A stretch of DNA of 64,000 nucleotides from a virus, in the IMG/VR virus record IMGVR_UViG_3300030116_004360, positions 1 to 64,000 of that record. One strand, given 5' to 3'. Positions 613 to 24,215 of this stretch are shown piece by piece. A program made the translations under genes and the position numbers. Each line of letters begins with the position of its first letter. Within the stretch, counting starts at the first letter, position 1. The notes under the pieces are model-generated. The model searched no databases and had not been told where the DNA came from. It was given only the letters and a program-made list of their open reading frames with translations.

Positions 613-747
613 ATGAATAAAAGCACTGTTGTATATAATAGTTCATATTGTGCTATTGATATAATAGGAATGGTTTCTATATTTACAATGACTTGTGTAT
701 TTTTATTATCTTGTTTATATTATGTTTTTGATAAAATATTTAGGTGA
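613..747 (+). CDS. 44-residue single-span membrane protein
   Basis: A short open frame fills the space between the preceding gene and the terminase: ATG 613, TGA 745-747. About residues 17-38 are hydrophobic (IIGMVSIFTMTCVFLLSCLY), a likely transmembrane helix, followed by a short basic end. An upstream CGTGAT fits the ribosome-binding pattern of this genome, and its end carries the GGTGA used by the terminase. Function unknown. A small membrane protein could act in entry, exclusion or lysis, but nothing here decides. Confidence 0.6.
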   Translation: MNKSTVVYNSSYCAIDIIGMVSIFTMTCVFLLSCLYYVFDKIFR

Positions 748-752
748 ATAAT

Positions 753-2186
753 ATGGATTTATTAGATAGAGATTTTATGTCCGAAATGGACTTAGAGTTA
801 TCTAAGAATTCTTTCCCATATTTCTTTCAAAATGTATTAGGTAATATGTTTCCTAAATATATGGAAGAATGGTTAGAACTTATGGAAACAACAGATAGAA
901 CTGTTATTATTTGTAGTCGTGACCACGGAAAATCAGTTTTTATGCATTCATGGGCAGTATGGAATTTATGTTTCCAACCACCTCCATACCAAATGCTTTA
1001 CATATCTTCTAACCATAAGCAGACAATGGTGCATATGAGAGAGATAGATAGAATATTTAATAATCCAGCACTTAAACAATTTAAGCCTAGTAGAGGATGG
1101 GCTATTGGTAATATTCAATTAACTAACGGTAATTCAATTATTGAGCGTTCAGTTGGTTCACAGATTCGTGGACTTCACCCTCAAGAAATTATTATTGACG
1201 ACCCACTAAAAGAATTTAGTTTAGTAGGTATTCAAAAGGTAACTGATTGGTTCTTTGGAGATATGATACCAACACTTCACCATACTGCATCATTAAGAAT
1301 GATTGGAACTCCATTTACTTATACAGATATATTTACTCAATTAGAAGAAAATGAAGTATATACATTAAGAAAATACCCATGTTACAATCAATTAGGAGAA
1401 CCTCTTTGGCCGGATAGATGGAATAAAGAAGCATTAGAACATCGTAAAATGGAAATAGGTTCTTTGAAGTTTACTAGAGAATATTTATGTGTTCCTATAT
1501 CAACAGGAACTAGTTTGTTTGCACCTGAACATTTAGAGGCTGCTAAATCACATGATGATATATTGAGAATTTCTCAACGTAAAGAACAAGGCTACAAATA
1601 TTATGTTGGAGTAGACCCGGCTATTTCCACTGATGGTGACTATAATGTAATTATGGTCTTAGAAGTGGATGAAAATAAAAACAAAAGGATTTGCTTCGTG
1701 GACCGTTCAAAGAACGTAGAGTTCCGAGAAAACATAAATAAGATTAAACTGCTAGGAAAAATGTTTGACCCTGAAGTAGTTTTATTTGAGACAAATACTT
1801 TCGCTAAATCATTTACTCAGGAGTTACGCACAATGACGGATTTAAATGTAAAAGATTTTACAACGACTAGAAAGAAGAAAGAAGAGATTATATTGAACCT
1901 TCAAATGAATTTAGAGAACAATAAAATTAAGTTACCCTATGGAAATAATGAAAGTCAAAAGGTAAGTAAAGCCATTATTGATGAAATGTCTATGTTCTCA
2001 ATTACAGACAGGGGAAGGTTTGAAGGTGTGGGCGCACATGACGATTTAGTTATGGCGTTAGCATTGGCTAATTCGGCTACTCATTTAATGGGTGAAACTT
2101 TTGTATTAATAGAAGATATGGATATATTCGGTGATAAGCAACCAGATACTTTTAACATTAATCCGGGAATAACAGGTTTGTGGTAA
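753..2186 (+). CDS. terL: Terminase large subunit (DNA packaging motor)
   Basis: This protein pumps virus DNA into the prohead and cuts it. The N-terminal ATPase has a Walker A-like SRDHGKS (about residues 55-61) and a Walker B IIIDDPLKE (about 146-154). The C-terminal RNase H-like nuclease shows its acidic residues in VGVDPAIS (D about 288), VLFETNTF (E about 346) and HDDLVMAL (about 429-436). Its 477 residues are normal for the family. I place the start at ATG 753, five bases after the stop of the membrane protein, because the in-frame GTG at 744 is part of the GGTGA ribosome-binding site. Confidence 0.95.
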   Translation: MDLLDRDFMSEMDLELSKNSFPYFFQNVLGNMFPKYMEEWLELMETTDRTVIICSRDHGKSVFMHSWAVWNLCFQPPPYQMLYISSNHKQTMVHMREIDRIFNNPALKQFKPSRGWAIGNIQLTNGNSIIERSVGSQIRGLHPQEIIIDDPLKEFSLVGIQKVTDWFFGDMIPTLHHTASLRMIGTPFTYTDIFTQLEENEVYTLRKYPCYNQLGEPLWPDRWNKEALEHRKMEIGSLKFTREYLCVPISTGTSLFAPEHLEAAKSHDDILRISQRKEQGYKYYVGVDPAISTDGDYNVIMVLEVDENKNKRICFVDRSKNVEFRENINKIKLLGKMFDPEVVLFETNTFAKSFTQELRTMTDLNVKDFTTTRKKKEEIILNLQMNLENNKIKLPYGNNESQKVSKAIIDEMSMFSITDRGRFEGVGAHDDLVMALALANSATHLMGETFVLIEDMDIFGDKQPDTFNINPGITGLW

Positions 2187-4160: not shown

Positions 4161-4499
4161 ATGTGGAAAAGTATTCTTAAAAAAGAACCTAAAAAAGGGA
4201 CAGGTAAAAAACCAAAAGGTTCTTCTAGAAGATTATATACAGATGAAAACCCAAAAGATACTGTTCCTGTTAAATTTAAAACGGCTCAAGACGTAATAGA
4301 TACATTCACAAGTTCAGCGTTTAAATCTAAATCACATCTAAGACAATCACAAATAATAAATGTAGTTGAACAAAGATTACGAGTAGCAGTTAAAAATGCA
4401 AAAGACCCTGAAACTAAAAAGAGATTAAATAAAGCACATAAAGTAGCATTAACCTATAAAGAAAGAAGTAAAAGAAAAACACAGAGGATGAAAAAATGA
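4161..4499 (+). CDS. Basic protein with N-terminal WxxILK tag
   Basis: A 112-residue protein beginning MWKSILKKEPKKG. The start is ATG 4161, because the in-frame GTG at 4152 is part of the ribosome-binding site GTGATTATA. A lysine-rich linker (residues 8-30) is followed by a helical region. The C-terminus is again basic (KERSKRKTQRMKK). It overlaps the next gene by four bases (ATGA), so translation is probably coupled. Function unknown. Confidence 0.7.
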   Translation: MWKSILKKEPKKGTGKKPKGSSRRLYTDENPKDTVPVKFKTAQDVIDTFTSSAFKSKSHLRQSQIINVVEQRLRVAVKNAKDPETKKRLNKAHKVALTYKERSKRKTQRMKK

Positions 4500-5256: not shown

Positions 5257-5598
5257 ATGGATGAAAAATGGTTTATGACTCTAAAGGCAAAAAAGCCTGA
5301 CCCTCGCTTAAAAAGAGCAGGTGTTTCTGGTTTCAATAGACCAAAAAGAACACCTTCTCATAAAACAAAATCACATATTGTTGTAGCAAAGGATAAAGAT
5401 AAAGTTAAAACAATTAGATTTGGTCAACAAGGAGTTAAAACTAATCAAACTGCTGGACAACGTAAAGCCTTTAAATCTCGTCATCGTAAAAATATTAAAC
5501 GCGGTAAATTGAGTGCGGCATATTGGGCTGATAAAGTAAAATGGAGTCCAAAGAAAACTAAAGAAAAGAAAAATAAAAAGTGGAGAAAGGGGTCTTAA
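5257..5598 (+). CDS. Basic protein with N-terminal WxxTLK tag
   Basis: A 113-residue protein beginning MDEKWFMTLKAKKPD, the last of the tagged group before the portal. The start is ATG 5257, because the GTG at 5248 belongs to the GGTGAATGAT site. The body is rich in Lys, Arg and Gln (KNIKRGKLSAAYWADKVKW) and ends KKWRKGS. A DNA-binding or capsid-lining role is plausible from charge. No domain recognised. Confidence 0.7.
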   Translation: MDEKWFMTLKAKKPDPRLKRAGVSGFNRPKRTPSHKTKSHIVVAKDKDKVKTIRFGQQGVKTNQTAGQRKAFKSRHRKNIKRGKLSAAYWADKVKWSPKKTKEKKNKKWRKGS

Positions 5599-5600
5599 TT

Positions 5601-7235
5601 ATGGCAGAAAGAAGAAGATTTTCTATTCGTAGTTTATTACGAAGACAAACACCTGCGCCAGCAGACCGTAAAACATTCCAATTTGGAATCCAAGAGCGTG
5701 AACACGCTTATTTTATGACCGCGCCTGTAATTTATCATATGGCGCAACAATCAGTAATTGTTCGCACTTGCACTACACAATTAAAACAAGAAGTGTTTAG
5801 GCGTGGTTATTTATGGAAAGAGGCTTTTACTAAACAATGCGTAAGTTGTGGCAAAAAACATGAAAGAGCCGTTGAACAATGTGTTGAATGTGGTAGCACT
5901 AATTTAAGAAATCCTGACCCTAAACAATTACAATATGCTAAAAAATTCATGGAAGATTATGTTAATACATCTAATCAATTATTTATTGATGTGTTAAAAG
6001 AATTAGAAGATGATTTAAATATTATGGATGACGCATATCTTTGTTTAGTTAAAGAATATTTTATTGATGGTGATGGACAAATTAAACTACATAGGATTAA
6101 AGAACTATTTAGAAGTGACCCTGTAACTATGCATATTTACGCTGATGAGTTTGGTCAAAGAGGAACTAAAGGTTTTATATGTCCTATTCATAGAACACAA
6201 TTATATACAGAAGCACACGAAAGTTGTGAATTATGTAATGCAGAAACTAAACCTGTTCATTATGTTAATAGAGTTCATGGTGAAGACCAATATTATATTG
6301 AAGGAGAGGTAGTTCATTTTAGTAAATATGCTCCTAGTCGTTTATATGGTATGTCTCCAATTATTACTTTATGGAACCATGTAACTACATTACTTGCTAT
6401 GGAACAATATGTAAATCAATCATATTCAAAACGAAGGATGCCTAAAGGACTACTTGCAGTTCAAACTAGAAATATTGATTCAATGAAAACCTTTTGGAGA
6501 GCAGTTAAAGAAAGAATGGAGCAAGACCCTCATTTTATCCCTGTAATGGGAATAGAAGCAGATGGTGGAAAAGGTGGTGTTGAGTGGATTAAATTCATGG
6601 ATAGCCTAAAAGAAATGGAATATGTATCTGTTAAAGATGATTTAAGAGATAGAATTTCAGCGTTTTATGGAGTAAGTAAAATCTTTATGGCTGATAACAC
6701 TACTAGTGGTGGACTTAACAATGAAGGTATGCAAATACTTGTTACAAATAGAGCAGTAGAAATGGCGCAGAGTGTTTACAATAAATATGTATTTCCATTC
6801 ATTACAAGACAATTTGGTATTACAGATTGGGAATTAGCACTTCCTCCATCAGAAGAAGAAGATGAGATTGCTAGAATAAGAAAAAGAGAATTAGAAGTAA
6901 ATATTGCGGGTTCAATGAAAAATTTAGGTTTTGAAGTTGATATGGATGAAAAGGGTAGGTTTACTTATACTAAACCAAAGCCAAAGGAAGATACTCCTAA
7001 AGAAGGTGAAGAAGAAGAAAAACCCTTTGAAAAAGACCCATTAGCAGGAACAAATATAGATGCTTCACAAATGGGACAATTGCAGGAACAGGCTTTACAG
7101 GGTGGAAAAGATTCACCCCCGGCCAAAAGAAATAAAGCCTCGATGAGCGTAGGCCCACCAAATAGAAACGCTGGATTACCAAAAGAAGCAGCAAATAATA
7201 ATGTAGATAGAAGAACAGAAAGAAGAGTTGGTTAA
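5601..7235 (+). CDS. Portal protein with two zinc-binding insertions
   Basis: The portal forms the ring through which DNA enters and leaves the head. Support comes from its place between terminase and protease-scaffold, its 544-residue size, and portal-like segments such as SRLYGMSPI, LAMEQYVNQ and the C-terminal IFMADNTTSGGLNNEG region. Unusually, it has two likely zinc sites: C80-x2-C83...C94-x2-C97, and C194-x2-H197...C209-x2-C212. The Pro/Glu/Lys-rich C-terminal 80 residues look disordered. ATG 5601 follows GGAGAAAGGGGTCTTAATT. Confidence 0.85.
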   Translation: MAERRRFSIRSLLRRQTPAPADRKTFQFGIQEREHAYFMTAPVIYHMAQQSVIVRTCTTQLKQEVFRRGYLWKEAFTKQCVSCGKKHERAVEQCVECGSTNLRNPDPKQLQYAKKFMEDYVNTSNQLFIDVLKELEDDLNIMDDAYLCLVKEYFIDGDGQIKLHRIKELFRSDPVTMHIYADEFGQRGTKGFICPIHRTQLYTEAHESCELCNAETKPVHYVNRVHGEDQYYIEGEVVHFSKYAPSRLYGMSPIITLWNHVTTLLAMEQYVNQSYSKRRMPKGLLAVQTRNIDSMKTFWRAVKERMEQDPHFIPVMGIEADGGKGGVEWIKFMDSLKEMEYVSVKDDLRDRISAFYGVSKIFMADNTTSGGLNNEGMQILVTNRAVEMAQSVYNKYVFPFITRQFGITDWELALPPSEEEDEIARIRKRELEVNIAGSMKNLGFEVDMDEKGRFTYTKPKPKEDTPKEGEEEEKPFEKDPLAGTNIDASQMGQLQEQALQGGKDSPPAKRNKASMSVGPPNRNAGLPKEAANNNVDRRTERRVG

Positions 7236-10264: not shown

Positions 10265-12778
10265 GTGGCTACCTCTGGTGTTGTGTTTGAAAAAGAAACA
10301 AACCCTCTCTCTGGTAGAGTAATTGATTTATTTGAAAAGACACGCATGGCGTATCTTTCTGCTAGAGAGTCACCTAAAGATTATTCTGATTTATGGCGTA
10401 ATGTTGTTAAACAGATTCGTGGGGCATACGATGATTTAGATGACTTTGCGAAGCATCTAAAAAAGATTTTAAATAACGAATTGTTATTTAATAAGGAAGT
10501 ATTAGACCCATCTTCTGATTCTGCTCGTCAAGTGTATGAAGCACTAAAACGGGTTCGATATAATGCGGAAATTGTAAAAGACCCTTTCCTAAAGGCATTT
10601 AATGATAAAGTATTGGAAGAACTGCTTGAAAATGAGAGCGTATATGCGAAATTTATCCATTGGGCTTTACGTGACGACAATAAAACCCTTAATGCAGACA
10701 GTTATAAGAATTTAGGCTTAGAACCTGATGAAATTACAGGGGGTTATCCCGGTCTTGACCTAGTTGAGAAGGATTTGACTTCGTTTATTGTGGAGCATTA
10801 TGGTGATGGAAAAGATTCTAAACGGGTAAATAGTAAGTATGCGGGTGCTAAAGCCCTTTTAGAAAAAGTATTCAAAGAAGAAGGTTCAGATAAACAATGG
10901 TCTAAGTTAGTGGGTGTTGAACTAAAGAAAGCAGAAAAATCTAAATCTAATTTTATAGTTCCCAACAAACCTATGTATAGAATATTCGATATTGATGATA
11001 TGAATGAACTTCGTGGATTTACCGGAGAGTTTCTAGTTCAAGAGAAGTATGACGGTATGAGAATCCAAATTCATAAGATAGATAATAATATTAAGATATT
11101 TTCATACAATGAGAAGGATATTACAGACAAATGCCCTGAACAAGTAAAACTTATGAAAAAGAAGGATATGCCAGAATGTATTTTAGATGCAGAACTGATG
11201 TTATTTGATGATAAAGAGGCTTTACATAGAGCAGATACAATAGCACATATATTTAAAAATCAATATCCTGATGCAACACTTCGCATCCATGTGTTCGATA
11301 TTATGCGACATGAAGATAGAGATTTATTAGATACAGAATTACAAGATAGAATTAATATTTTATTCCATCATTACTCACCAAAATCACATGAATTGTTGGC
11401 TTTCCCATCTAAAAAAGATACTCGTATAGCAGATTCATTAAAAGAGGTTGAGAGTTACGGTAAAGAAATCATGAAAATTCCTACTGCTGAAGGAGTAGTT
11501 ATTAAAGACCTAACTTCTACATATTATGTTGGAACTCGTAAAAATCCAAAATGGGTTAAATGGAAAAAGTTTATTGATTTAGATATGATTGTTTTAAACA
11601 AAAAAGAAACTAAGTCGGGACTTAATTCATATACATTAGGAGCAGGGCCATTAACAACCGAAGAAATGAGAGAATTTGAATCAGTTGAATTTGATAATAA
11701 AAAATATCTTAATGTGGGCAAAGCATTAAATACAAAAATTGATGTAGAAGTCGGAAAAATTATTCGTGTTAAAGTTGATGAAGTAAAGAAAAATAAGAAA
11801 GGTTTTAGTTTATTTTCTGCAAAAGTTATTGAAGTTCCAGAAGTTGAAAGTCCTGAAAAAATAATAACTCTTGAAATGCTTTCTAAAGAAACTAAAAAAT
11901 CCTTAAAATATAAAATAGAAGCATTAGAAAAATCTTATACTGTTACTGATTTAATACATGGTGAAGCAACTCTTATTCTAAAAAGTGAATTTGATGGTTT
12001 TACAATTTATGGATTTGAAGAAAATAATCTAATGGCAAAAAATGCTTTAGCAAATCTTGATTTAATTAAAGACCAATTAGAAATAATTTCTAAAGAAAAG
12101 GTAAGTGTTCTTCGTGTTGGTATTAAAAATTTCTTGACGGAAAAAGGAGAATCTACCCTTGAAGAAATAGAAGATTGGATTAAGAAAAATCCTGAGATGT
12201 TAGAATTATATAATGATAAACTAAATGGTAAAACTAAAGAATTGTCTCAGTTTTTAAGAAATAAAGCAGAAGATATACTCTATGCAAACAAAAAGTTTAG
12301 AGCAAATACAAATGTTTTAGAAAAGGATATTGAAAAAGCAGAAACTCCTAAAGAGTTTAGAAAGGGTAAATTTAAGATATATCTTAGAGATGACGGAAAT
12401 CTTAATGTTATGTTTTTATTAAATAAAGAACAAACAGGTTGGTTAGTTGATATTAACAATGTTGATGATATATTTGCATACTTAGGTAAAGCAAATAAAT
12501 ATCCTGCGGAAGTTGCATCTAATGTTGATAAAACCAAATTGGTTGATGAAGGTGATGTTGAGTTAGGAATACAAAGGGACGGTTATCACGAATATAAATT
12601 AGATGGGAACAAATTTGATACTAGATTGCATTTTAGAGTCATTGAAGTAGATAATAAAGAAATGTGGCTAACATGGTCTGGATATAAACAAGAAATGAAT
12701 GAAATGGATAGTGATGAAGGAATATGGGACTTATCAAAGGATAGGTATAAGAAATTAACCATACCCAAAAAGGATTAA
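10265..12778 (+). CDS. Large protein with an ATP-dependent DNA ligase domain
   Basis: An 837-residue protein from GTG 10265 behind AAAGGTGATACATT. The centre is a complete nucleotidyltransferase core: KYDGMR with the adenylated Lys at 261, DAELML (E310), HVFDIM (342-347), EGVVIKD (409-415) and WVKWKK (430-435), followed by a likely OB fold (about 436-525). The N-terminal 240 residues and the C-terminal 300 are not the usual ligase partners. The end (DGYHEYKLDG, TRLHFRVIE, MWLTWSG) looks like a separate beta domain. It lies in the virion module, and a second normal ligase sits in the replication module. It may seal nicks in packaged or entering DNA, or the fold may be reused (inference). Confidence 0.8.
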   Translation: MATSGVVFEKETNPLSGRVIDLFEKTRMAYLSARESPKDYSDLWRNVVKQIRGAYDDLDDFAKHLKKILNNELLFNKEVLDPSSDSARQVYEALKRVRYNAEIVKDPFLKAFNDKVLEELLENESVYAKFIHWALRDDNKTLNADSYKNLGLEPDEITGGYPGLDLVEKDLTSFIVEHYGDGKDSKRVNSKYAGAKALLEKVFKEEGSDKQWSKLVGVELKKAEKSKSNFIVPNKPMYRIFDIDDMNELRGFTGEFLVQEKYDGMRIQIHKIDNNIKIFSYNEKDITDKCPEQVKLMKKKDMPECILDAELMLFDDKEALHRADTIAHIFKNQYPDATLRIHVFDIMRHEDRDLLDTELQDRINILFHHYSPKSHELLAFPSKKDTRIADSLKEVESYGKEIMKIPTAEGVVIKDLTSTYYVGTRKNPKWVKWKKFIDLDMIVLNKKETKSGLNSYTLGAGPLTTEEMREFESVEFDNKKYLNVGKALNTKIDVEVGKIIRVKVDEVKKNKKGFSLFSAKVIEVPEVESPEKIITLEMLSKETKKSLKYKIEALEKSYTVTDLIHGEATLILKSEFDGFTIYGFEENNLMAKNALANLDLIKDQLEIISKEKVSVLRVGIKNFLTEKGESTLEEIEDWIKKNPEMLELYNDKLNGKTKELSQFLRNKAEDILYANKKFRANTNVLEKDIEKAETPKEFRKGKFKIYLRDDGNLNVMFLLNKEQTGWLVDINNVDDIFAYLGKANKYPAEVASNVDKTKLVDEGDVELGIQRDGYHEYKLDGNKFDTRLHFRVIEVDNKEMWLTWSGYKQEMNEMDSDEGIWDLSKDRYKKLTIPKKD

Positions 12779-12804: not shown

Positions 12805-14046
12805 ATGGAGATAGTGTCGAACCAAGACCTATTACTCAAGGGAAATTTAGACGATGAGTTTACTATATTAAAAGCCGAAGAGTTAGTTATTGGGGGTTAT
12901 GCGAGCATAGAAATAGTAGATAAACAAAATGACTTAATTACATTAGACGCATTAAACGAAGCAGTAAAGAAATTTATGCAAGAAAAGAAATTCAGAAACG
13001 TAATGACCAATCATTCAAATGTTCAAGTAGGAGAAGTATTAGATAATTACCGAGATAAAACTGGTAAACTATGGAAAACAGATGTAGATGATGTTGGATT
13101 CTTTGTAGTAATTAAATTAAGAGAAGATATTGAAAAAGCAAAAGAAGTATCTCGCGGAATTAGAAAAGGAACATTAAGAAGTTTTAGTATTGGTGGACAA
13201 GCACTACATAAGAAACAAAAATATCACAAAGAACTAGGCGAATATAACGCAATAGAGAAATTAGAACTCCATGAAGTAACAATATGCGAAAAGGGGATAA
13301 ATCCAGAAGCAAAATTTGATATACTAAAAATGGAAAAAGAAGGTGAAATTATGAGCGAGAAATTAGAAAAAGCAATTGATGAACTAGATAACTTATTGAA
13401 GGAAGTGAAAGAAATGACGGAAGACAAAGAAACGACAGAATACATGGATACTGATGAAAAAGGTATGTATGGTGAGAAAATGGACGAAAAAGCAGACAAA
13501 GACATGGAAATGGCTGATAAAGACATGGAAATGGCCGATGATGATGTTGAAGATGCAGAAACAGAATTAAAGGGTCGTAAAGATATAGCAACCGGAGAGG
13601 TTGAAGACCATGTTCCCGAAGATAGGATTGTTATTGAAGGTGGACGACCTAAAGCATCAACAATGCCTGTAACTAAAGGTTTTGTTGTTCCAACACTTGA
13701 TTTAAGTGCTGAAAACATTGAGAAGGCTTATGCTGAATATAGAGCAGAACAATTAGAAAAATTGGCTTATTCCGATGTTAAGAAGCAGTTTGAAGACCGC
13801 TTTGAGGCAGAAATGGAAGCAAAGAAACTTGAAATTGCTAAAGCCGAGTATGATGCTCAAGAAGAAGTATTAGCATTAAAGAACGAATTTGCAGAATTGC
13901 GAAAGAGTTTAACTGCTGAGAAAGAAATGATTGTTAAGGCTCAAACTGAAGCAACAGCATTACCCGAAAATTTCCCAACAACAATGGAGGATTACGCTAC
14001 AATGGATTGGGCGGATATTCATAACTTAGTGAGGGATATGGAATAA
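12805..14046 (+). CDS. Prohead protease fused to scaffold
   Basis: A 413-residue protein. Residues 1-180 resemble the HK97/XkdF-type prohead protease: GYASIEIVDKQND opening, VMTNHSNVQVGEV with the catalytic-type His, SFSIGGQAL with the Ser, then LHEVTICEKGINP. Residues 185-413 form the scaffold: acidic, repetitive (ADKDMEMADKDMEMADDD) and coiled-coil (about 310-385). It ends in MDWADIHNLVRDME, shared with the small protein at 9413. The protease would remove the scaffold once the shell is built. Start ATG 12805 or GTG 12814; the sequence does not decide. Confidence 0.85.
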   Translation: MEIVSNQDLLLKGNLDDEFTILKAEELVIGGYASIEIVDKQNDLITLDALNEAVKKFMQEKKFRNVMTNHSNVQVGEVLDNYRDKTGKLWKTDVDDVGFFVVIKLREDIEKAKEVSRGIRKGTLRSFSIGGQALHKKQKYHKELGEYNAIEKLELHEVTICEKGINPEAKFDILKMEKEGEIMSEKLEKAIDELDNLLKEVKEMTEDKETTEYMDTDEKGMYGEKMDEKADKDMEMADKDMEMADDDVEDAETELKGRKDIATGEVEDHVPEDRIVIEGGRPKASTMPVTKGFVVPTLDLSAENIEKAYAEYRAEQLEKLAYSDVKKQFEDRFEAEMEAKKLEIAKAEYDAQEEVLALKNEFAELRKSLTAEKEMIVKAQTEATALPENFPTTMEDYATMDWADIHNLVRDME

Positions 14047-14080
14047 ATTTCCTATAAAGGATAAAAAGAAGGTGAAAAAG

Positions 14081-15403
14081 ATGAGTAACTATATACGAAC
14101 AATTAAAGATTTAGAAGCAGCAACCTATGGTGTTGGAAACTTCCCAAATAACGATTTATTGAAAGCAGCAGGTATTGTTGGAGGATTACATACTCCTCAT
14201 GATGGAGCAACAGGTTTTTCTGGTGTTTCAGGCATTACTAACTTATATGGCGTAATTTACGGTCAAAAAGTTTGGTCTATGTTGAATCAAGAAGTTAATG
14301 CACTATCAATGCTGGCTAAACGCCCATATACTTCAAGTGGTTGGAGAATCCTAAAGAGCCGTCCTTCTGGCGGTAGTGGTTCTTCTTTTACTACTACACA
14401 AACTAATAACGCTTTAGGAACAGATAACCCCGGTTCTGATTTAATTGGTGGTGTTCCTGAAAATGAGTCACTATCTAACTTAACTGCGGTTGCTCCTGTT
14501 TATGATAAATTATTCATGAGTCCTAAGACAGTAGCCCATTTGTTTGAGTTCAGTGAACTTGCTATGGAAATGGCGAAAATTGACGATGGTATCGGAGATA
14601 TTCGTGCAATTGTCCGTGAAGACATGGGTAAATTCCATGCAGAAGTTCAGAATAAAATGCTATTAATGCCTCTAGTAGATTATGACCATAGTAATCTAGG
14701 AGATATTGATAGAAACTATACTTCTCTATCTAAGGTAGTAACTTCTAATGCTGAATTAACTGCATTAAAAGCAGCAGGTCAAACTGCTACTGCTTTAGGT
14801 GCTGGTAATGCAAAAGATATTACTCAATTATACGGTAATAACGATAGAGATACTGGTGCATCTTTTATGGATTCACAGGTTAATTTCGGTGGAGGTTATG
14901 CTACTTCTGATAATCGAAGTTTAACTCTAAGTTTGTTAAATAGTTTGATTCAGGATATTCGTCTTGCTGGTGGTGGAACAAAGGTTATTCTAACTGGATA
15001 TGATACCATTCAAGCATTAGCAGACCTATTACAGGCTCAAGAGCGATTTATGGACAGAAAGGAAATTATGCCTTCTCATAACGGTGTTCGTGGAGTAAAG
15101 GGTCGTGAAGTCGGATTCCGTGTAGCGACATACTTTGACCTACCGCTAATTCCATGTAAAGACATGACTAAAACAGTAAATAGTTCATTAACTGCTGCTG
15201 ATTGTCTTTCTGACCTATTGTTCCTTGATACTGACCATTTGTGGCTTGCAGTAATGAAACCAACCCAATACTTTGAGGATGGTATTACTTCTGGCAACCC
15301 ATTCGGTGTTGGAAAACTCGGAAATCAGGGTATGTATCGAACTATTGCTGAAACAGGTTGTTCATTCTTTAAATCTCAAGGTAAGATTACAAACCTCAAG
15401 TGA
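14081..15403 (+). CDS. Major capsid protein, HK97 fold
   Basis: A 440-residue protein directly after the protease-scaffold, the usual place for the shell protein. Supporting segments: an N-terminal helix region, a Gly/Ser/Thr-rich stretch near residues 98-120 that fits the extended loop, LAMEMAKIDDGIGDIRAIVR resembling the spine helix, and a C-terminal half with IQDIRLAGGGTKVILTG and FRVATYFDLPLIPCKDM typical of the A domain. The start is ATG 14081, because the GTG at 14072 is part of AAGGTGAAAAAG. Codon choice looks more GC-tolerant than in its neighbours, as expected of a highly expressed gene. Confidence 0.88.
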   Translation: MSNYIRTIKDLEAATYGVGNFPNNDLLKAAGIVGGLHTPHDGATGFSGVSGITNLYGVIYGQKVWSMLNQEVNALSMLAKRPYTSSGWRILKSRPSGGSGSSFTTTQTNNALGTDNPGSDLIGGVPENESLSNLTAVAPVYDKLFMSPKTVAHLFEFSELAMEMAKIDDGIGDIRAIVREDMGKFHAEVQNKMLLMPLVDYDHSNLGDIDRNYTSLSKVVTSNAELTALKAAGQTATALGAGNAKDITQLYGNNDRDTGASFMDSQVNFGGGYATSDNRSLTLSLLNSLIQDIRLAGGGTKVILTGYDTIQALADLLQAQERFMDRKEIMPSHNGVRGVKGREVGFRVATYFDLPLIPCKDMTKTVNSSLTAADCLSDLLFLDTDHLWLAVMKPTQYFEDGITSGNPFGVGKLGNQGMYRTIAETGCSFFKSQGKITNLK

Positions 15404-16121: not shown

Positions 16122-16192
16122 TATTTACTTCATTTTGGCTTACACTACCTTTATAGGGTAGGGGGGATATGACCCCAATAGGAGCGAGTATT

Positions 16193-16471
16193 ATGGTGCA
16201 AGCAAGTAGAACGTCAGGTGTATTAACTGCATCTGCAATTGTAAATAGAGGTCAATGTAAATTAATGAGTATTCATGCTTGTGAAACTGCTGGTTCAATG
16301 GCTCAAATTAAGATATTTGACGGAACTGATGCAACAGGTCTTGAAATTGCTAGAATAATTCTAGCAGCAGGACAAACAATTGAATTTGATATGCATGGCG
16401 TAATTGCTAAAAATGGTTTATACTTTGAAGAAAGTTCTGGTGCAGTTGCTTGCTCTGTTGAGTTTCAGTAG
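16193..16471 (+). CDS. Small beta-rich virion protein
   Basis: A 92-residue protein beginning MVQASRTSGVLTASAIVN, predicted beta-sandwich (AQIKIFDGTDATGLEIARII, GQTIEFDMHG). Similar short beta proteins are common among structural genes of marine phages, as I recall. ATG 16193 follows GGAGCGAGTATT. An in-frame ATG at 16169 behind a run of G would add eight residues. The space before it contains CTTTATAGG, a weak TATA-like match. Probably a head or neck decoration. Confidence 0.6.
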   Translation: MVQASRTSGVLTASAIVNRGQCKLMSIHACETAGSMAQIKIFDGTDATGLEIARIILAAGQTIEFDMHGVIAKNGLYFEESSGAVACSVEFQ

Positions 16472-16480
16472 GTGATTATT

Positions 16481-16867
16481 ATGGCAGCATTAAATAAAGA
16501 TACAAGATTAATTATGACGATTTTATTCGTTGGTGCTATGAGTGGAACTAACGTATATTTTTATGCAAATTATGGAATTTCATTTCCATATACTGCATTC
16601 GCCCATGCAATTCTTTTTGGGTTATTAACAGTTGGAAGTGTTATGGGTATGAAAGCAATTTTTGATTTAGCAATTAATGATAGAATTGAATTATATTTGT
16701 TAGACCGAAGAATAAAAGCATACTGGGATAGACGAACTAGAGAAGAACAACAAAGGCAGAAGATTAGAGAAACTATGAATATGAATCAAATGAGTTTAAA
16801 TTATATGGCTCCAAGTTATGAATCTTCTGAAATTAGTAATGAGTTTTTAGCGACGGTTGAACAGTGA
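16481..16867 (+). CDS. Two-span membrane protein next to the GTPase block
   Basis: A 128-residue protein from ATG 16481, with GGTGATTATT directly upstream. Two hydrophobic segments (about 10-30, LIMTILFVGAMSGTNVYFY; about 38-62, AFAHAILFGLLTVGSVMGM) are followed by a charged helical cytoplasmic tail (YWDRRTREEQQRQKIRETM). It starts a cluster of membrane and GTPase genes inserted between head and connector genes. No homologue recognised. Confidence 0.7.
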   Translation: MAALNKDTRLIMTILFVGAMSGTNVYFYANYGISFPYTAFAHAILFGLLTVGSVMGMKAIFDLAINDRIELYLLDRRIKAYWDRRTREEQQRQKIRETMNMNQMSLNYMAPSYESSEISNEFLATVEQ

Positions 16868-16871
16868 TATT

Positions 16872-17081
16872 ATGGTAGGTTTTCTATTCAATGATGAAAC
16901 AGTAGTTTCATATGATTTACAAAGAGCGCATTCAGCAGATGTTTGGTTTATTAAAGCAAGAGCATGGATATGGGGAATAACTTGTGCAGTAGCAGCATTT
17001 TTAATTGGAAACATTTTAGGTGTATTTAGTATAAATGTATTTGGAATTGCATTTGATTTAATTGGAAGTATGTTACATTAG
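16872..17081 (+). CDS. Small membrane protein next to the GTPase block
   Basis: A 69-residue protein from ATG 16872, behind AGTGATATT. After a polar start (MVGFLFNDETVVSYDLQRAH) a long hydrophobic region covers about residues 34-66 (IWGITCAVAAFLIGNILGVF, then FGIAFDLIGSML), one or two spans. It ends 12 bases before the GTPase gene. Probably a membrane partner of that enzyme, by position only. Confidence 0.65.
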   Translation: MVGFLFNDETVVSYDLQRAHSADVWFIKARAWIWGITCAVAAFLIGNILGVFSINVFGIAFDLIGSMLH

Positions 17082-17093
17082 GTGTGAGTTTAT

Positions 17094-17747
17094 GTGTCCG
17101 TTGTTGCAGGTTTCGCTATTGTAGTAACAGAGGCAGTATTTTCATTATGGAAAAAGGTTCATGCAATTAATTTTGGAATATATGGAGTTAGTAAAGCAGG
17201 TAAAACTACATTACATCATCAATTAAGAACAAGAGGAGAAGTTCCAAATATTTCTAAAAGAACTGTTGGATTACATAGAGCAACAAGAAAATTAGTTAAA
17301 ATTGATGGAGATGCACATACATTAAAAACTGCTGATGTTGGTGGAGAATCTAAATATTGGAATGAATGGATGAAGGACTTAAGAAAAAGAAAAGTCAAAT
17401 ATGTAATATTTTTATTAGACAATAGACATTTAAATGGAAATAATATGGAACAACAAATAGCATGGAAATTTTTAGTTGATTTAATTTGTAAAGATAAATG
17501 GCCGGGAGGAAAGAAAAAGAAATCTAATGACTATCCTTTAGCAGTTGGATTATGGGCTAATAAAGCAGATTTATGGGCAAAAGGTTTTTCAAAAGACCCA
17601 AGAAAACATGAGATTTTTGACCCATTTAGATACGGAATGAGCCTATTAAATGATAAAGGAATACCAACACATCAATATATAATTAGTGCAAAAACAGATT
17701 CAGAAATGGTTTATCGAGGAATAATGACTATGATTAATGATTATTAG
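17094..17747 (+). CDS. Membrane-anchored Arf/Sar/SRbeta-like small GTPase
   Basis: A 217-residue protein from GTG 17094 behind GGTGTGAG. Residues 3-18 are hydrophobic and may insert in a membrane. All GTPase motifs are visible: P-loop GVSKAGKTT (31-39), switch I KRTVGL (T57) aligned with Arf PTIGF, switch II DVGGE (81-85) where Arf has DVGGQ, NKAD (156-159) giving guanine specificity, and SAK (198-200). The pattern is closest to Arf, Sar and SR-receptor beta GTPases. The Gln-to-Glu change in switch II may slow hydrolysis. It is flanked by two membrane proteins and a zinc-site protein, suggesting a membrane-linked complex acting in assembly, entry or exclusion (inference). Confidence 0.85.
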   Translation: MSVVAGFAIVVTEAVFSLWKKVHAINFGIYGVSKAGKTTLHHQLRTRGEVPNISKRTVGLHRATRKLVKIDGDAHTLKTADVGGESKYWNEWMKDLRKRKVKYVIFLLDNRHLNGNNMEQQIAWKFLVDLICKDKWPGGKKKKSNDYPLAVGLWANKADLWAKGFSKDPRKHEIFDPFRYGMSLLNDKGIPTHQYIISAKTDSEMVYRGIMTMINDY

Positions 17748-17756
17748 GTGAATAAT

Positions 17757-18398
17757 ATGCAAGGTTATGCTCCATCAGGATTATTAATAGGTAGTCAAAC
17801 ACCTAATCAAGTTCCATCTTCTTTTTTAAATAAAAGAGTTGCTGCTCGTTCAGCAGGGCCAATGGAAGAATATCAGTTTTCTGAAATTAGACCAAGAAAA
17901 CAATTAAAAGAAATACGTAAAGTATTATTACCTGAGAAAAAACGCTTTTTATTTGTTAAGTTTGGATATAAATTTAATCTTACAAACAGATGTGTTATTT
18001 GTGGAACACATCATGAATGGGATATTTCCGACCCATATAGGCCGGGAATACCATTACATGAAGTAACTAAAGGTAGGCCATTAAGAGGAACTTATTGCCA
18101 AAAACACTCTGCTATGTATAAACAAATGGAAATGTTAGAACAACAAATTTTAGCAGATGAACACGGTTTAGAATTTAAAAGGTGGATACCTAAACCAAGA
18201 GTTCCACAGGTAATAAATAAAGGCCCATTAACTTCATTAGGGCCAAATGATATAACAAGCCTAATTGCTGCTGGTTGGGTAATTAAACCACCAACAGTAG
18301 ATGAGGAACCACCTAATGAAGAATATAAAAGATTGATGATTGAAATAAAAGGTTCATTAGAAAGAGTAAATAAATTAGTAACAGGAGATGAAGAATAA
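17757..18398 (+). CDS. Zinc-site protein of the GTPase block
   Basis: A 213-residue protein from ATG 17757 (GGTGAATAAT upstream). A likely metal site is C-V-I-C-G-T-H-H near residues 78-85, with a partner C-Q-K-H about 40 residues later. The flanking helices (QLKEIRKVLLPEKKRFLFVK) are basic, and the C-terminal 60 residues are Pro-rich then coiled-coil (YKRLMIEIKGSLERVNKLV). It is translationally linked to the next gene (TAATG). Function unknown. Confidence 0.65.
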   Translation: MQGYAPSGLLIGSQTPNQVPSSFLNKRVAARSAGPMEEYQFSEIRPRKQLKEIRKVLLPEKKRFLFVKFGYKFNLTNRCVICGTHHEWDISDPYRPGIPLHEVTKGRPLRGTYCQKHSAMYKQMEMLEQQILADEHGLEFKRWIPKPRVPQVINKGPLTSLGPNDITSLIAAGWVIKPPTVDEEPPNEEYKRLMIEIKGSLERVNKLVTGDEE

Positions 18399-19096
18399 TG
18401 GTATTTGGAACAAGTAATAGAAAAGTGTTAAACACAATTAATGATAGTAATACACAGACGTTTAAAACAGTAAACAATTTACTAACATTACAAGAAAATC
18501 ATGTTGAAGAATTTTTTCAATATCATGGTTTAGATTTCTTTGGTGCATTAGAACAATTAATGTCTGATGTTACAGAAAGAGTAGTTTCACAGATGTTATC
18601 TAAAATGGAATTATCTTTAACTGCTTCAACAGGAAAAATAACTGTTTCACCCGATTGTTTAAGAGATTACGAAAAGATTACTCAAGAGAATATTGATTTA
18701 GATATTCAAAATTTATTAAACACATCTGTAAATAGTGAAGTTATAATGCAAAGAAAGATGGCTAAATCTTCATACTTAGAATCACAGGGTTATTCTTCAC
18801 CACAACCTCAAATGCCTCAAATTCCACAACAACAACCAATGAATATTCAAGGACAACCACAAACAGGTCAAATGAATATGCAAATGAATCAACAAATGGG
18901 TGCTATTAATAATCAATCAGGTTATCCTGTTCCACCCGCAGGATATGATAATATGAATAACCCATATTGGATGGACCCAAATACGGGTCAAGCAACTTAT
19001 TCACCACCTTCAAGCGGTTTAGGCTTATCTAAGGCTGGACCCGTTGTAATGAAAACTGCTCAAAAAGCAGCAGCATGGGCTAAATGGTTGGCTTAA
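18398..19096 (+). CDS. Gln/Pro/Met-rich protein with C-terminal amphipathic helix
   Basis: A 232-residue protein. The first 125 residues are helical (VNNLLTLQENHVEEFFQYHG). Residues about 130-210 are low complexity, rich in Gln, Pro, Met, Asn and Tyr, including PYWMDPNTGQATYSPPSS. The end, KTAQKAAAWAKWLA, is an amphipathic helix that could bind a membrane or partner. It is the last gene of the GTPase block. No family recognised. Confidence 0.65.
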   Translation: MVFGTSNRKVLNTINDSNTQTFKTVNNLLTLQENHVEEFFQYHGLDFFGALEQLMSDVTERVVSQMLSKMELSLTASTGKITVSPDCLRDYEKITQENIDLDIQNLLNTSVNSEVIMQRKMAKSSYLESQGYSSPQPQMPQIPQQQPMNIQGQPQTGQMNMQMNQQMGAINNQSGYPVPPAGYDNMNNPYWMDPNTGQATYSPPSSGLGLSKAGPVVMKTAQKAAAWAKWLA

Positions 19097-19109: not shown

Positions 19110-20696
19110 ATGGTTGAAATAATGTGGAAAGGTTCATTAGTTGCTAATATTGGTGAGCCTAACCACCTTATTATCCAAAAAGAATTTTTACTCTCAAAAT
19201 TTATGGGTTCAGAAGCAGATGCTATTGAATATACAATCAATTCAATTTATCCTAATTTTATAGAATTAACTGAACAACAAACAGGAAAAAAGTTATCTAA
19301 TGAAGAGATTAAAAGAGTTGTTAGCCAAGCAAAGGCTCAACTTAAAAAGATTGAAAAAATGGGAATAGAAAAAATAATTAAAGATGTTCAACTTCCTGAT
19401 GGAAATAGAAATAAAAGGATTATGAGAACTTTAGATAAACCATATCCTGATGTTACTGTATCTGAATCTAGCGATACAAGAAAACAAGCAGAATTTTCTG
19501 GTAATTTAAGTGAAAAGGTTGTTTCACGAAGACAGGATAAAAGATTATCAGATATGTTAGAAGGAAAATATAAAATGACTAAAGGTGAATTCAATTCTAT
19601 ATATGGAATAGATAGTTTAAAAACCACTGGTAAAAAAGTAAACGTAGCAGGTGGTTCTTCTGTAAGTTTTACAATAGATAAAGTAGCAACCAAAGATAGT
19701 GTAAATTATAAATTAACTATGTTATTTAACTTAGTTCCAGATATATCAGCACAAAAAACTATTTTAAGGTCAGAAGGTTTATCTAATGTTGCGTATAATG
19801 AAATTATTGATGAATCAAAATCAAGTTTACGTGAAAGAGCAGAAGAGGATTGGTATAAAGGAAGTAGAGTAAGGCAAAATATTGAACAACATATGTCTCA
19901 ATATGATAAAAGAACATCTTATAATCAACTTATTGCTGATTTACAAGCAGATTTAGTAAAACGTAAAGCAGACCTTAAAAGGTCTAAGGCTTACGAAGAA
20001 GCAAGTAAAACTAAAAAAGTTTCACTTGAACGTGAATATGTTAGAGATTTAAAAGATAGATTAAAGACCTTAAAAAAACAAAGAGATGATTTTAAGAAAA
20101 GACAACAAAAAGCAGAAAGAGATATAGATTTAGTAACTACCTTTGCTATTCCAATAGATTTACAAAAACAAGTAATAGATAAGGCAAAATCAGATGCCGG
20201 TGAACCTATAAAACGTAAAATTAGAACAGAAGAACAATTAAGAAAAAAATTTCAGAAGGCTATGTTAGCAACAGGAAATAAAGCAATCTTTGATAAATTA
20301 AATTTATATGATATACTTAGAGAAGGTTCTGATGTTATTAATGCTCATTATGCTACTAACGCAGTAATAGGACTACAACTCGATTTAGGTAACACAAGTG
20401 AAGTTAAAGATAAAGTAAAATTAAAGGTCTTACTTAAAGTAACTCATTTAGGTGAATTAGATGTTTTACAACATAGAAGGTTTTTGCAAGGTAAATTTAC
20501 TGCTGGAACTCAAGTTAGAACTGATTTAGAAGGTAGATATGGTAAAATTGGTCCCGAAAAATATCTTGATGCTCCTTCTAGTCCAATAAGAGATTTATTA
20601 GTTAAATCTGTTTCTGCAAAATATGAAAAATTAGAACGTAAAATTCAAAAAATGGAAGAAACAGTAAATAGAGTATTAGGTGAAAGAGATGACTAA
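19110..20696 (+). CDS. Unidentified 528-residue coiled-coil protein
   Basis: Reads from ATG 19110 behind AAGGAGTTGAAGTAA. ATG 19122 (MWKGSLVANI) is an alternative that would begin with a tag-like tryptophan. Coiled coil at about residues 280-350 (KDRLKTLKKQRDDFKKRQQK) and again at the C-terminus. Its composition resembles the 533-residue unknown at 7455. It precedes the head-tail adaptor, so it may be a head or ejected protein. Overlaps the next gene by eight bases. Confidence 0.65.
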   Translation: MVEIMWKGSLVANIGEPNHLIIQKEFLLSKFMGSEADAIEYTINSIYPNFIELTEQQTGKKLSNEEIKRVVSQAKAQLKKIEKMGIEKIIKDVQLPDGNRNKRIMRTLDKPYPDVTVSESSDTRKQAEFSGNLSEKVVSRRQDKRLSDMLEGKYKMTKGEFNSIYGIDSLKTTGKKVNVAGGSSVSFTIDKVATKDSVNYKLTMLFNLVPDISAQKTILRSEGLSNVAYNEIIDESKSSLRERAEEDWYKGSRVRQNIEQHMSQYDKRTSYNQLIADLQADLVKRKADLKRSKAYEEASKTKKVSLEREYVRDLKDRLKTLKKQRDDFKKRQQKAERDIDLVTTFAIPIDLQKQVIDKAKSDAGEPIKRKIRTEEQLRKKFQKAMLATGNKAIFDKLNLYDILREGSDVINAHYATNAVIGLQLDLGNTSEVKDKVKLKVLLKVTHLGELDVLQHRRFLQGKFTAGTQVRTDLEGRYGKIGPEKYLDAPSSPIRDLLVKSVSAKYEKLERKIQKMEETVNRVLGERDD

Positions 20697-22592: not shown

Positions 22593-24215
22593 ATGGTAAC
22601 AAATACAGATATATGGTTAGGTAGTGGAGCAAGTTTAACTTTAGTTCCTGAATTAGATTTTCAAATTAAATTAGATACTACATCATCATCAACACAATTA
22701 ATTGTTGATGCAACATTTTCTGATAATTTTAGATTAGTTGAAGATTTATATGTAGGTTGTATTGTTGATTTATATGATAATTCTGCATCAACTACTGTTC
22801 CTGCTTCTACTCATATTATAACATCTAATGATACTACTTCCGTTACAATTTCCCCTGCTCATTCTGTTGGAACATTACAGGATGCTACCGATTTTATGGT
22901 TATTCGTCGTTATGGCGCACCTTGTCCAACAACTAAAACAGGTTCAATTGCTAGGCTTAATGCAGACAATTGGTTAGGTTTAGTTGAATCTGCAACATTT
23001 CCTAATGTTGAGCAAGAAATGAAACAATTAAATATTAATTTAGGTAGTTCAAGAAACTTTACTCATCAATATAAAGGTATTCGCACCGCTAGTGGTGGTA
23101 ATATAGCGTTAATGGCTAATCATGGAGTATGGTTATATTATGCTCTTGGCGGGTGTTCAACAATTAATGGAACTTTTTCTGCAACTGCCGCTTCTTCCGT
23201 TACAAATGCACATACTAATAATGCTCATTATTTAGATATTGGCACTTCTGCTGCTAGTAAAACATTTAGTGATAGTTTAACTGCACATAATAATCAAGGG
23301 CCAATATTTTATAGAACCGCTACTGATTCAACAGTATTATTACCTTATGTATTAACTAGTGATGGTGATGCTGCTGCTAATTTAACATTACTTACATTAC
23401 CTTCTCATAATGCATCAGGTGTTATTCAAAATCCAATTCAATATACATTTGTTGAAGCAAATGGTGAAGATTTACCTTCATTTGGTTTAGAACAAAACTT
23501 AAGTAAATTAGAAACTAGTAATACTTATAACACCGAAACAGGAAGTGCTAGTGAATCACATAACTTTGTAAGAATTGCTAGAGGTAATCGTGTAAATACA
23601 TTAACCTTTACTGCAAATGAAAATGAGGAAGTTAAAATGACTCTTGATTTAAATACACGCGCAGTTCATAAATTAAAACAATCTGAGGCATATCAAGCAA
23701 GGGGTGGAAATTCTAATGATAAAACATTATTTAATTTTGGTAGTGGAGCAAACACAATTGCTGCAACAGGTGAAGAATCTCTAGAACCTTTCTTTTTCTC
23801 AAGTGGTTCATTTTCTATCTTTGGTCAACAATTCTTAAAAGTTACAAACCTTTCTCTAACTATTAATAATAATTTACAAGATAAGAGATTTGTAGGTATT
23901 GGTAATAAAGATATAAAGTCGGCTATTCCTGCACAAAGAACTTATGAACTTTCTTTTACTGCTATGGTTACAGATGATAAGTTATTTGAAGAATTATTTA
24001 ATGAAACTGAAATTGCTTCAGGAACTTCAACAATTGATTTACAATTCGATAAGGCTAATGGAGAACAAATTGTTCTTAAATTTGAAGATTATATGATGAG
24101 TGCATCAAACTTTACTATACCTGATGATAAAGGCCCAATTACTGTTGAAGGAATGGTAATGCCTAGAACTTTGAATACTTGCACAGTTAAGACACATTGG
24201 ATATTACAGGGGTGA
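22593..24215 (+). CDS. Major tail tube protein
   Basis: A 540-residue beta-rich protein between the tail terminator and the tail chaperones, the position of the tube protein. Features: DIWLGSGASLTLVPELDFQI start, GRVNTLTFTANENEEV-type strands, and an end with KGPITVEGMVMPRT typical of tube proteins with a polymerising loop. It is larger than the common 150-300 residues, so extra surface domains are likely. ATG 22593 follows GGAAAGTGAAAAGAAT. Confidence 0.7.
   Translation: MVTNTDIWLGSGASLTLVPELDFQIKLDTTSSSTQLIVDATFSDNFRLVEDLYVGCIVDLYDNSASTTVPASTHIITSNDTTSVTISPAHSVGTLQDATDFMVIRRYGAPCPTTKTGSIARLNADNWLGLVESATFPNVEQEMKQLNINLGSSRNFTHQYKGIRTASGGNIALMANHGVWLYYALGGCSTINGTFSATAASSVTNAHTNNAHYLDIGTSAASKTFSDSLTAHNNQGPIFYRTATDSTVLLPYVLTSDGDAAANLTLLTLPSHNASGVIQNPIQYTFVEANGEDLPSFGLEQNLSKLETSNTYNTETGSASESHNFVRIARGNRVNTLTFTANENEEVKMTLDLNTRAVHKLKQSEAYQARGGNSNDKTLFNFGSGANTIAATGEESLEPFFFSSGSFSIFGQQFLKVTNLSLTINNNLQDKRFVGIGNKDIKSAIPAQRTYELSFTAMVTDDKLFEELFNETEIASGTSTIDLQFDKANGEQIVLKFEDYMMSASNFTIPDDKGPITVEGMVMPRTLNTCTVKTHWILQG

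Follow-up and report, generated by a model that had tools for sequence, protein, structure and literature searches.

Five-gene block in the late operon

The DNA analysed here, referred to as the window, comprises positions 1-64,000 of the virus record IMGVR_UViG_3300030116_004360, the full length of which is 90,477 bases. The window carries a block of five genes that encode, in this order, membrane protein 1, membrane protein 2, a small GTPase, a zinc-site protein, and a flexible glutamine/proline-rich (Q/P-rich) protein, with neighbouring genes -10 to +14 bases apart. The late operon is arranged as terminase-portal-ligase-protease-major capsid protein (MCP)-block-connector. A preliminary description of this DNA had listed the five open reading frames (ORFs), including a zinc-site protein and a Q/P-rich protein with an amphipathic end, and all of them are present. 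It had also described the GTPase as flanked by small membrane proteins; two such proteins are indeed encoded, but both lie upstream of the GTPase and not on either side of it. The statement that the block interrupts the usual capsid-to-connector order is confirmed by a comparison with HVTV-1, in which the genes after the MCP are three small ORFs, gp124, and the connector, in this order.

Magroviruses are viruses of Poseidoniales, and the definition of the group has been published (PMC12999244). The genome traits given for Magrovirales in that definition are found here: a size of approximately 90-110 kb, PolB, a ligase, a terminase/portal/protease/MCP module, and opposite module directions. The replication module is on the minus strand and encodes PolB, an ERCC4 nuclease, a second ATP-dependent ligase, a Cpn60/TCP1 chaperonin, and a TFIIB-like zinc ribbon. 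By the published genome description, the virus fits a magrovirus-like head-tail virus, and its host, as taken from the same description, is probably a member of the Poseidoniales, which are abundant marine archaea. The five-gene set is real and apparently undescribed. The GTPase is not mentioned in the magrovirus literature examined, which agrees with the earlier view of an undescribed system; coverage of that literature is incomplete, and the novelty is provisional.

Conservation and co-inheritance

Loci of the window's own virus group (group 1) were sampled through the MCP, because a search based on the GTPase would be circular, and at least 4.2 kb of downstream sequence was required. Each scan took the best 80 loci, which are the closest ones, and the most divergent magrovirus clades may be under-sampled. 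In 47 of 47 MCP-anchored loci, the MCP is followed by orf100 (a small gene adjacent to the block), both membrane protein genes, and the GTPase, zinc, and Q/P genes. A conserved five-gene set with membrane features in the virion module, as proposed earlier, is thus present at every sampled locus. Conservation of the GTPase equals that of the MCP and well exceeds that of the connector or the tail tube (median identity to the window of 63.6% for the GTPase, 63.8% for the MCP, 49% for the tube, and 42% for the connector). Between block genes, genetic distances are correlated at 0.73-0.90, and between block genes and the prohead protease at 0.81-0.90; for the four pairs tested, such a correlation was reached in 0 of 500 permutations. 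The block is thus inherited along with the virion genes. The five genes almost certainly form a co-inherited unit within the late (virion) operon.

These data bear on the possibility that the block acts in host take-over or superinfection exclusion, where a late membrane complex would alter the host envelope or block other viruses. Small membrane proteins are common in exclusion systems. However, exclusion genes are usually accessory, whereas this GTPase is conserved like the MCP and its block is found in all 47 loci. In addition, no match for the GTPase was found in PADLOC, and its identity as part of a defence system was dropped for this reason. An exclusion function is therefore very unlikely.

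Motifs, fold, and family of the GTPase

The motifs reported earlier for the GTPase (P-loop GVSKAGKT, DVGGE, NKAD, and SAK) are all present, together with a switch-I RTVG, and its N-terminus is hydrophobic as described (19-residue Kyte-Doolittle mean of 1.85). In an alignment of 24 relatives, the motif residues hardly vary, and the P-loop and NKxD are kept in all 65 full-length group-1 copies. The G3 motif is D[VI]GGE in group 1 wherever the motif scan matched, while a second virus group (group 2, see below) has DIGGQ, DVGGQ, DVGGH, or D[LI]AGD, so that GGQ/GGH occurs in only a part of that group. Relatives of the GTPase are encoded on 379 viral contigs, which places the ORF of the window well past chance. 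An AlphaFold model (pLDDT 75) predicts an N-terminal helix at residues 2-22, which is hydrophobic, weakly amphipathic, and of low local confidence. Foldseek searches with the model against PDB gave 1293 matches with E<=0.001 to small GTPases, with Rab33, Ras, RHEB, Arl6, and G-alpha at the top, and the TIGR00231 small_GTP profile was matched in 24 of 24 members. The G1, G3, G4, and G5 motifs and the predicted Ras-like fold place the protein among the small GTPases of the Ras superfamily in the wide sense.

The GTPase had been described as closest to Arf/Sar/SRbeta. This holds insofar as Arf (PF00025) is the best single Pfam match of the window protein, with an E-value of 3.3e-4, but its 20.6 bits fall below the cut-off of 22.3 and several families compete. 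PF00025 was matched in only 5 of the 24 members. Over the same 24, no one profile prevails among MMR_HSR1, Roc, SRPRB, Ras, and Arf, and every curated cut-off is missed by the window protein. For SRP receptor beta (PF09439), it scores 19.3 bits against a cut-off of 25, and the best member reaches an E-value of 6.3e-5. Group-2 GTPases also match the Gtr1_RagA and EF-Tu profiles. Arf membership was sought by Pfam, NCBIfam, and PDB profile searches, which stayed below the cut-offs and singled out no family. The likeness to Arf/Sar1/SRbeta consists of the GKTT P-loop, the T-x-G switch I in group 1, the DxGG[E/Q/H] G3, the predicted hydrophobic N-terminal helix, and the weak Pfam matches. In contrast to these families, the viral protein scores equally with other small-GTPase families and has dedicated, unrelated neighbours. 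At the motif level (GKTT; DxGG followed by E, Q, or H), it can be called Arf/Sar-like in part. A search of the GenBank phage collection gave no match to the GTPase.

Membrane and zinc proteins

Membrane protein 1 is predicted to have two transmembrane (TM) helices in 46 of 62 relatives and one in the other 16, and its positional counterparts in group 2 have two in 45 of 48. One TM helix is predicted for membrane protein 2 in 52 of 60 relatives and in 44 of 45 group-2 counterparts. The CxxC..CxxH pattern of the zinc protein is found in 65 of 66 group-1 and 49 of 51 group-2 sequences. Searches with this protein found neither a similar fold in the PDB (best E 1.9) nor any meaningful match by sequence, and an ArfGAP-like identity was rejected on these grounds. 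Judged from motifs and predicted helices, the block is very probably GTP-binding and membrane-associated.

Distribution in other virus groups

Group 2 is a second, distant group of marine head-tail viruses, represented by 57 loci. Its block encodes a two-TM protein, a one-TM protein, a GTPase, a zinc protein, and a Q/M/P-rich protein, in this order, in 54-57 of the 57 loci. Profile comparison of groups 1 and 2 with hhalign gave a probability of 100% for the GTPases (30% identity), 93% for the zinc proteins (E 3e-7), and 79% for the Q/P proteins (E 1.7e-5), and these three proteins are homologous between the groups by this comparison. The group-2 block lies upstream of the terminase, on the same strand as the MCP and approximately 20 kb from it, in an operon of the order block...terminase-portal-ligase-like-protease-MCP, in which the terminase, portal, protease, and MCP were named from position and resemblance and not by profile search. 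The steady neighbour orf100 of group 1 was not found at the group-2 block. A third, more divergent branch (L389) has the same block order. With the same order kept at a different place, the block has moved as a unit and stayed in the virion operon, and the check proposed earlier, whether it moves as a unit between related viruses, has a positive outcome. In group 3, which has an MCP and a chaperonin, no GTPase block was detectable.

Druskaviridae are the nearest named relatives and have a homologous module. HVTV-1 has homologues of the protease, MCP, and tail tube, arranged alike, and its gp124, a small one-TM protein, occupies the slot of the block. In contrast, no GTPase, zinc, or Q/P gene was found in HVTV-1 and its relatives, which also lack the MW-tagged proteins described below. 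A pattern scan of 84,980 species genomes, which detects close relatives only, gave only two contigs (L115 and L116), both virus pieces with the MCP, protease, and block that had probably been misbinned in a 'Maricaulis' metagenome-assembled genome (MAG). A cellular origin of the block was rejected for this reason. L389, which carries the divergent block, comes like L115 and L116 from a MAG labelled Maricaulis, probably through binning contamination. An ORF of 65 amino acids (aa) at positions 1951-2148 of L389, AbrB-like by eye, separates its GTPase and zinc genes. The record of L127 (IMGVR_UViG_3300021958_000021, 184,733 bases) has two GTPases and two chaperonins, and it is possibly two genomes joined in assembly.

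Variable proteins with a shared peptide

In group 1, variable genes are inserted between orf74 (membrane protein 2) and the GTPase gene and between the GTPase and zinc genes. Scored after trimming of the ORFs to the conserved ATG, 43 of 46 inserts at these two gaps begin with MWxx[IV][LI]K, compared with 6 of 478 ORFs in other gaps of the operon (Fisher P 9e-53, a value that overstates the contrast because related sequences are non-independent). This gap analysis was made after the peptide had been spotted in the GTPase-zinc gap, and the other gaps and group 2 serve as the comparison. The MW-tagged set comprises 112 ORFs, the bodies of which fall into 25 mutually unrelated clusters, although the set includes a few chance matches such as L051. 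Examples are spread over L003-L193 of group 1, including L066 (10660-11226), L059 (6659-7198), and L030 (10668-11549). The codons of the tag vary synonymously, which indicates that the peptide is what is conserved. From this pattern, MWxx[IV][LI]K is likely a sorting or packaging tag. No mention of the tag peptides was found in the literature searched.

Group 2 has its own motif, [FY]xx[AGV][WF]x[hydrophobic][hydrophobic]x0-1[KR], of the AFxxAWxLLK-like type and mostly near the N-terminus. Of the accessory ORFs around the block, 174 of 420 on the upstream side and 43 of 296 on the downstream side carry it (217 in total); the motif was defined after examples had been seen there, and these counts are descriptive. 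As controls, it was found in 1 of 1092 shuffled ORFs and in 1 of 905 ORFs in MCP windows of group 2, although the latter count takes in both strands and spurious ORFs and somewhat inflates the contrast. The tagged arrays, in which the motif reads AFxx[AG]Wx[LV][LV]K, lie on L315-L371, for example upstream of the GTPase on L316, L320, and L330, and one family is tagged C-terminally. Few of the tagged proteins could be assigned: one of L315 is confidently a C5 DNA methylase (E 3.8e-18), and others have weak GNAT and ASCH matches. Further tagged proteins resemble ADP-ribosyltransferases or metalloproteases by eye only.

Coordinates and neighbouring genes

Table 1. Features of the five-gene block and its surroundings in the window
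Feature	Position	Strand	Basis or remark
Terminase	744-2186	+	head-tail virion module
MWKSILK-tagged small protein	4161..4499	+	between terminase and portal, outside the block; no other clear tagged protein in the window
Portal	5580-7235	+	head-tail virion module
ATP-dependent ligase-like protein	10265-12778	+	virion module, between portal and prohead protease
S78 prohead protease	12805-14046	+	virion module
SU10-like MCP	14072-15403	+	virion module
orf100, small non-membrane protein	16169..16471	+	immediately 5' of the block; 47/47 MCP-anchored loci; no TM
Membrane protein 1, ~128 aa, charged C-terminal tail	16481..16867	+	ORF open from 16472, first ATG 16481; 47/47 loci
Membrane protein 2, up to 74 aa, one TM	16857..17081	+	TM counts in relatives
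Small GTPase, 217 aa, GTG start	17094..17747	+	motifs, Foldseek PDB matches, TIGR00231
GTPase N-terminal hydrophobic helix, residues 2-22 (predicted)	17097..17159	+	model (low local confidence), hydrophobicity
P-loop GVSKAGKT, residues 31-38	17184..17207	+	invariant G31, G36, K37, T38
G3 motif DVGGE, residues 81-85	17334..17348	+	motif scan
G4 motif NKAD, residues 156-159	17559..17570	+	NKxD in 65/65
G5 motif SAK, residues 198-200	17685..17693	+	invariant
Zinc-site protein, 216 aa	17748..18398	+	homologous to group-2 protein of ~300-345 aa (hhalign)
Putative zinc site C82-x2-C85 ... C117-x2-H120	17991..18107	+	invariant
Q/P-rich protein, conserved N-terminal region, C-terminal amphipathic stretch	18398..19096	+	47/47 loci, hhalign
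Q/P protein C-terminal amphipathic stretch	19040..19093	+	conserved in relatives
orf528, hypervariable positional gene linking block and connector	19110..20696	+	outside the conserved unit
Tail tube	22593-24215	+	virion module

A gene at the orf528 position is always present and encodes 356-1326 aa in most relatives. The window copy has no relative at the threshold used, except in near-identical contigs. It starts with MVEIMWKG and was considered as a tagged protein, but the gene is a positional one, hypervariable and lacking the motif, and the idea was dropped. The ligase-like protein lies between the portal and prohead protease in groups 1 and 2, which is an odd site for a replication enzyme. 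A group-2 copy (L388, 13435-16860) is without the KxDG motif.

Proposed role and competing explanations

Late in infection, the two membrane proteins, together with the N-terminal helix of the GTPase, would hold this enzyme at the host membrane. Once GTP is bound, a newly exposed surface would recruit the zinc and Q/P-rich proteins, and this membrane-bound switch may organise virion assembly, most likely prohead formation and the loading of internal cargo. The tagged variable proteins would be effectors that are packaged in the head and ejected. Assembly or cargo loading is tentatively preferred to egress or entry, at somewhat less than an even chance, because of the late-operon position, the universal presence in the sample, the capsid-like conservation, and the clustering with tagged proteins. 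The association with tagged proteins also points to assembly or cargo delivery more than to exclusion. While the unit itself is well supported, the mechanism is weakly supported.

Known phages offer a parallel to this loading role. T4 proheads mature on the membrane and then detach, and the T4 internal proteins carry N-terminal targeting peptides some ten residues long (PMC9026906). DarB of phage P1 bears an N-terminal packaging signal (PMC9024508). The viruses studied here resemble T4 (internal proteins and Alt) and P1 (DarB) in that a prohead protease is encoded and a short N-terminal peptide is common to otherwise unrelated proteins, as in capsid-targeted cargo; the presence of a DNA methylase among the tagged contents is a further likeness. 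In contrast to T4 and P1, the tag peptides differ in sequence and cluster beside a GTPase cassette. Proteins that resemble ejected cargo, and a block that sits among virion genes, would also suit virion-borne entry machinery, in which packaged membrane proteins and the GTPase act at the host membrane during ejection of the genome and internal proteins and the membrane helices could form a conduit. However, a GTP-dependent switch requires cytoplasmic GTP, which is awkward for a packaged protein, and this explanation is quite unlikely.

Egress by membrane deformation is the main rival to assembly or loading. On this view, viruses are released because the GTPase, with the two small membrane proteins, deforms the host membrane or opens it, in a way analogous to ArvA or holins. 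ArvA, ArvB, and ArvC (OapA, OapB, and OapC) are encoded by the archaeal vesiculating GTPase operon of Haloferax volcanii, and ArvA is a small GTPase that drives membrane budding in Euryarchaeota (PMC10927574). Like the viral protein, ArvA belongs to the small GTPases of the Ras superfamily, close to PF00025/PF01926; it has a membrane helix at its N-terminus and is encoded with a zinc protein (PMC10927574). The Arf-like N-terminal helix, the small membrane proteins, and the late-operon position would all fit egress. In contrast, the partner families OapB (PF09846) and OapC (PF09845) were absent from five virus records, while the Haloferax control was detected. In the viruses, the zinc site has the form CxxC..CxxH and belongs to a protein without a match to the ArvC family, and the viral block has two extra membrane proteins and the Q/P protein. 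An ArvABC identity was rejected on the missing partner families, in a comparison that covered OapB and OapC. In addition, egress gives no reason to expect tagged proteins clustered around the block, and a site among capsid and connector genes would be unusual for a lysis cassette. Egress is accordingly somewhat unlikely.

Several points weigh against the assembly and loading role. The late-gene position does not separate assembly from egress, and all of the evidence is genomic. The zinc protein has no recognisable fold, and the membrane-protein pairs of groups 1 and 2 have no significant profile similarity, with agreement in size, order, and TM number. The window has no tagged gene beside its own GTPase. 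Tagged genes of group 1 also occur at other late-operon sites, such as portal-ligase and connector-o177, and group 3 (L260, L266, L270, L271, and L273) has MW-tagged proteins without a detectable block, so tag and block are separable and their link is correlative. The last two observations favour the view that the block is functional but that tagged cargo is linked to it by coincidence, through a late-operon junction that tolerates insertions. Against coincidence, other variable junctions have hundreds of untagged and no tagged ORFs (0/275 tagged at mcp-orf100 and 0/98 at QP-connector), and the clustering recurs in group 2 despite another block site and another tag. Such a coincidence is a real possibility, if not the expected case; it is compatible with any function of the block and is judged apart from the other explanations. 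Taken as a whole, the proposal of a new kind of viral machine, in which a membrane-tethered GTPase complex, shared by two or more archaeal head-tail virus lineages that separated deeply, sorts a large and fast-changing repertoire of peptide-tagged effectors into or through the virion, is unlikely.

Implications for archaeal viruses

Small GTPases acting with membrane proteins are a hallmark of eukaryotic trafficking, and ArvA is the one worked-out archaeal case. To our knowledge, there is no other membrane-GTPase system in the virion module of tailed viruses. The block would be a second, independent archaeal membrane-GTPase system, located in viruses of marine archaea and conserved like the capsid protein. 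If the tags are packaging signals, they would reveal dozens of unknown families of injected effectors and provide a simple route to more.

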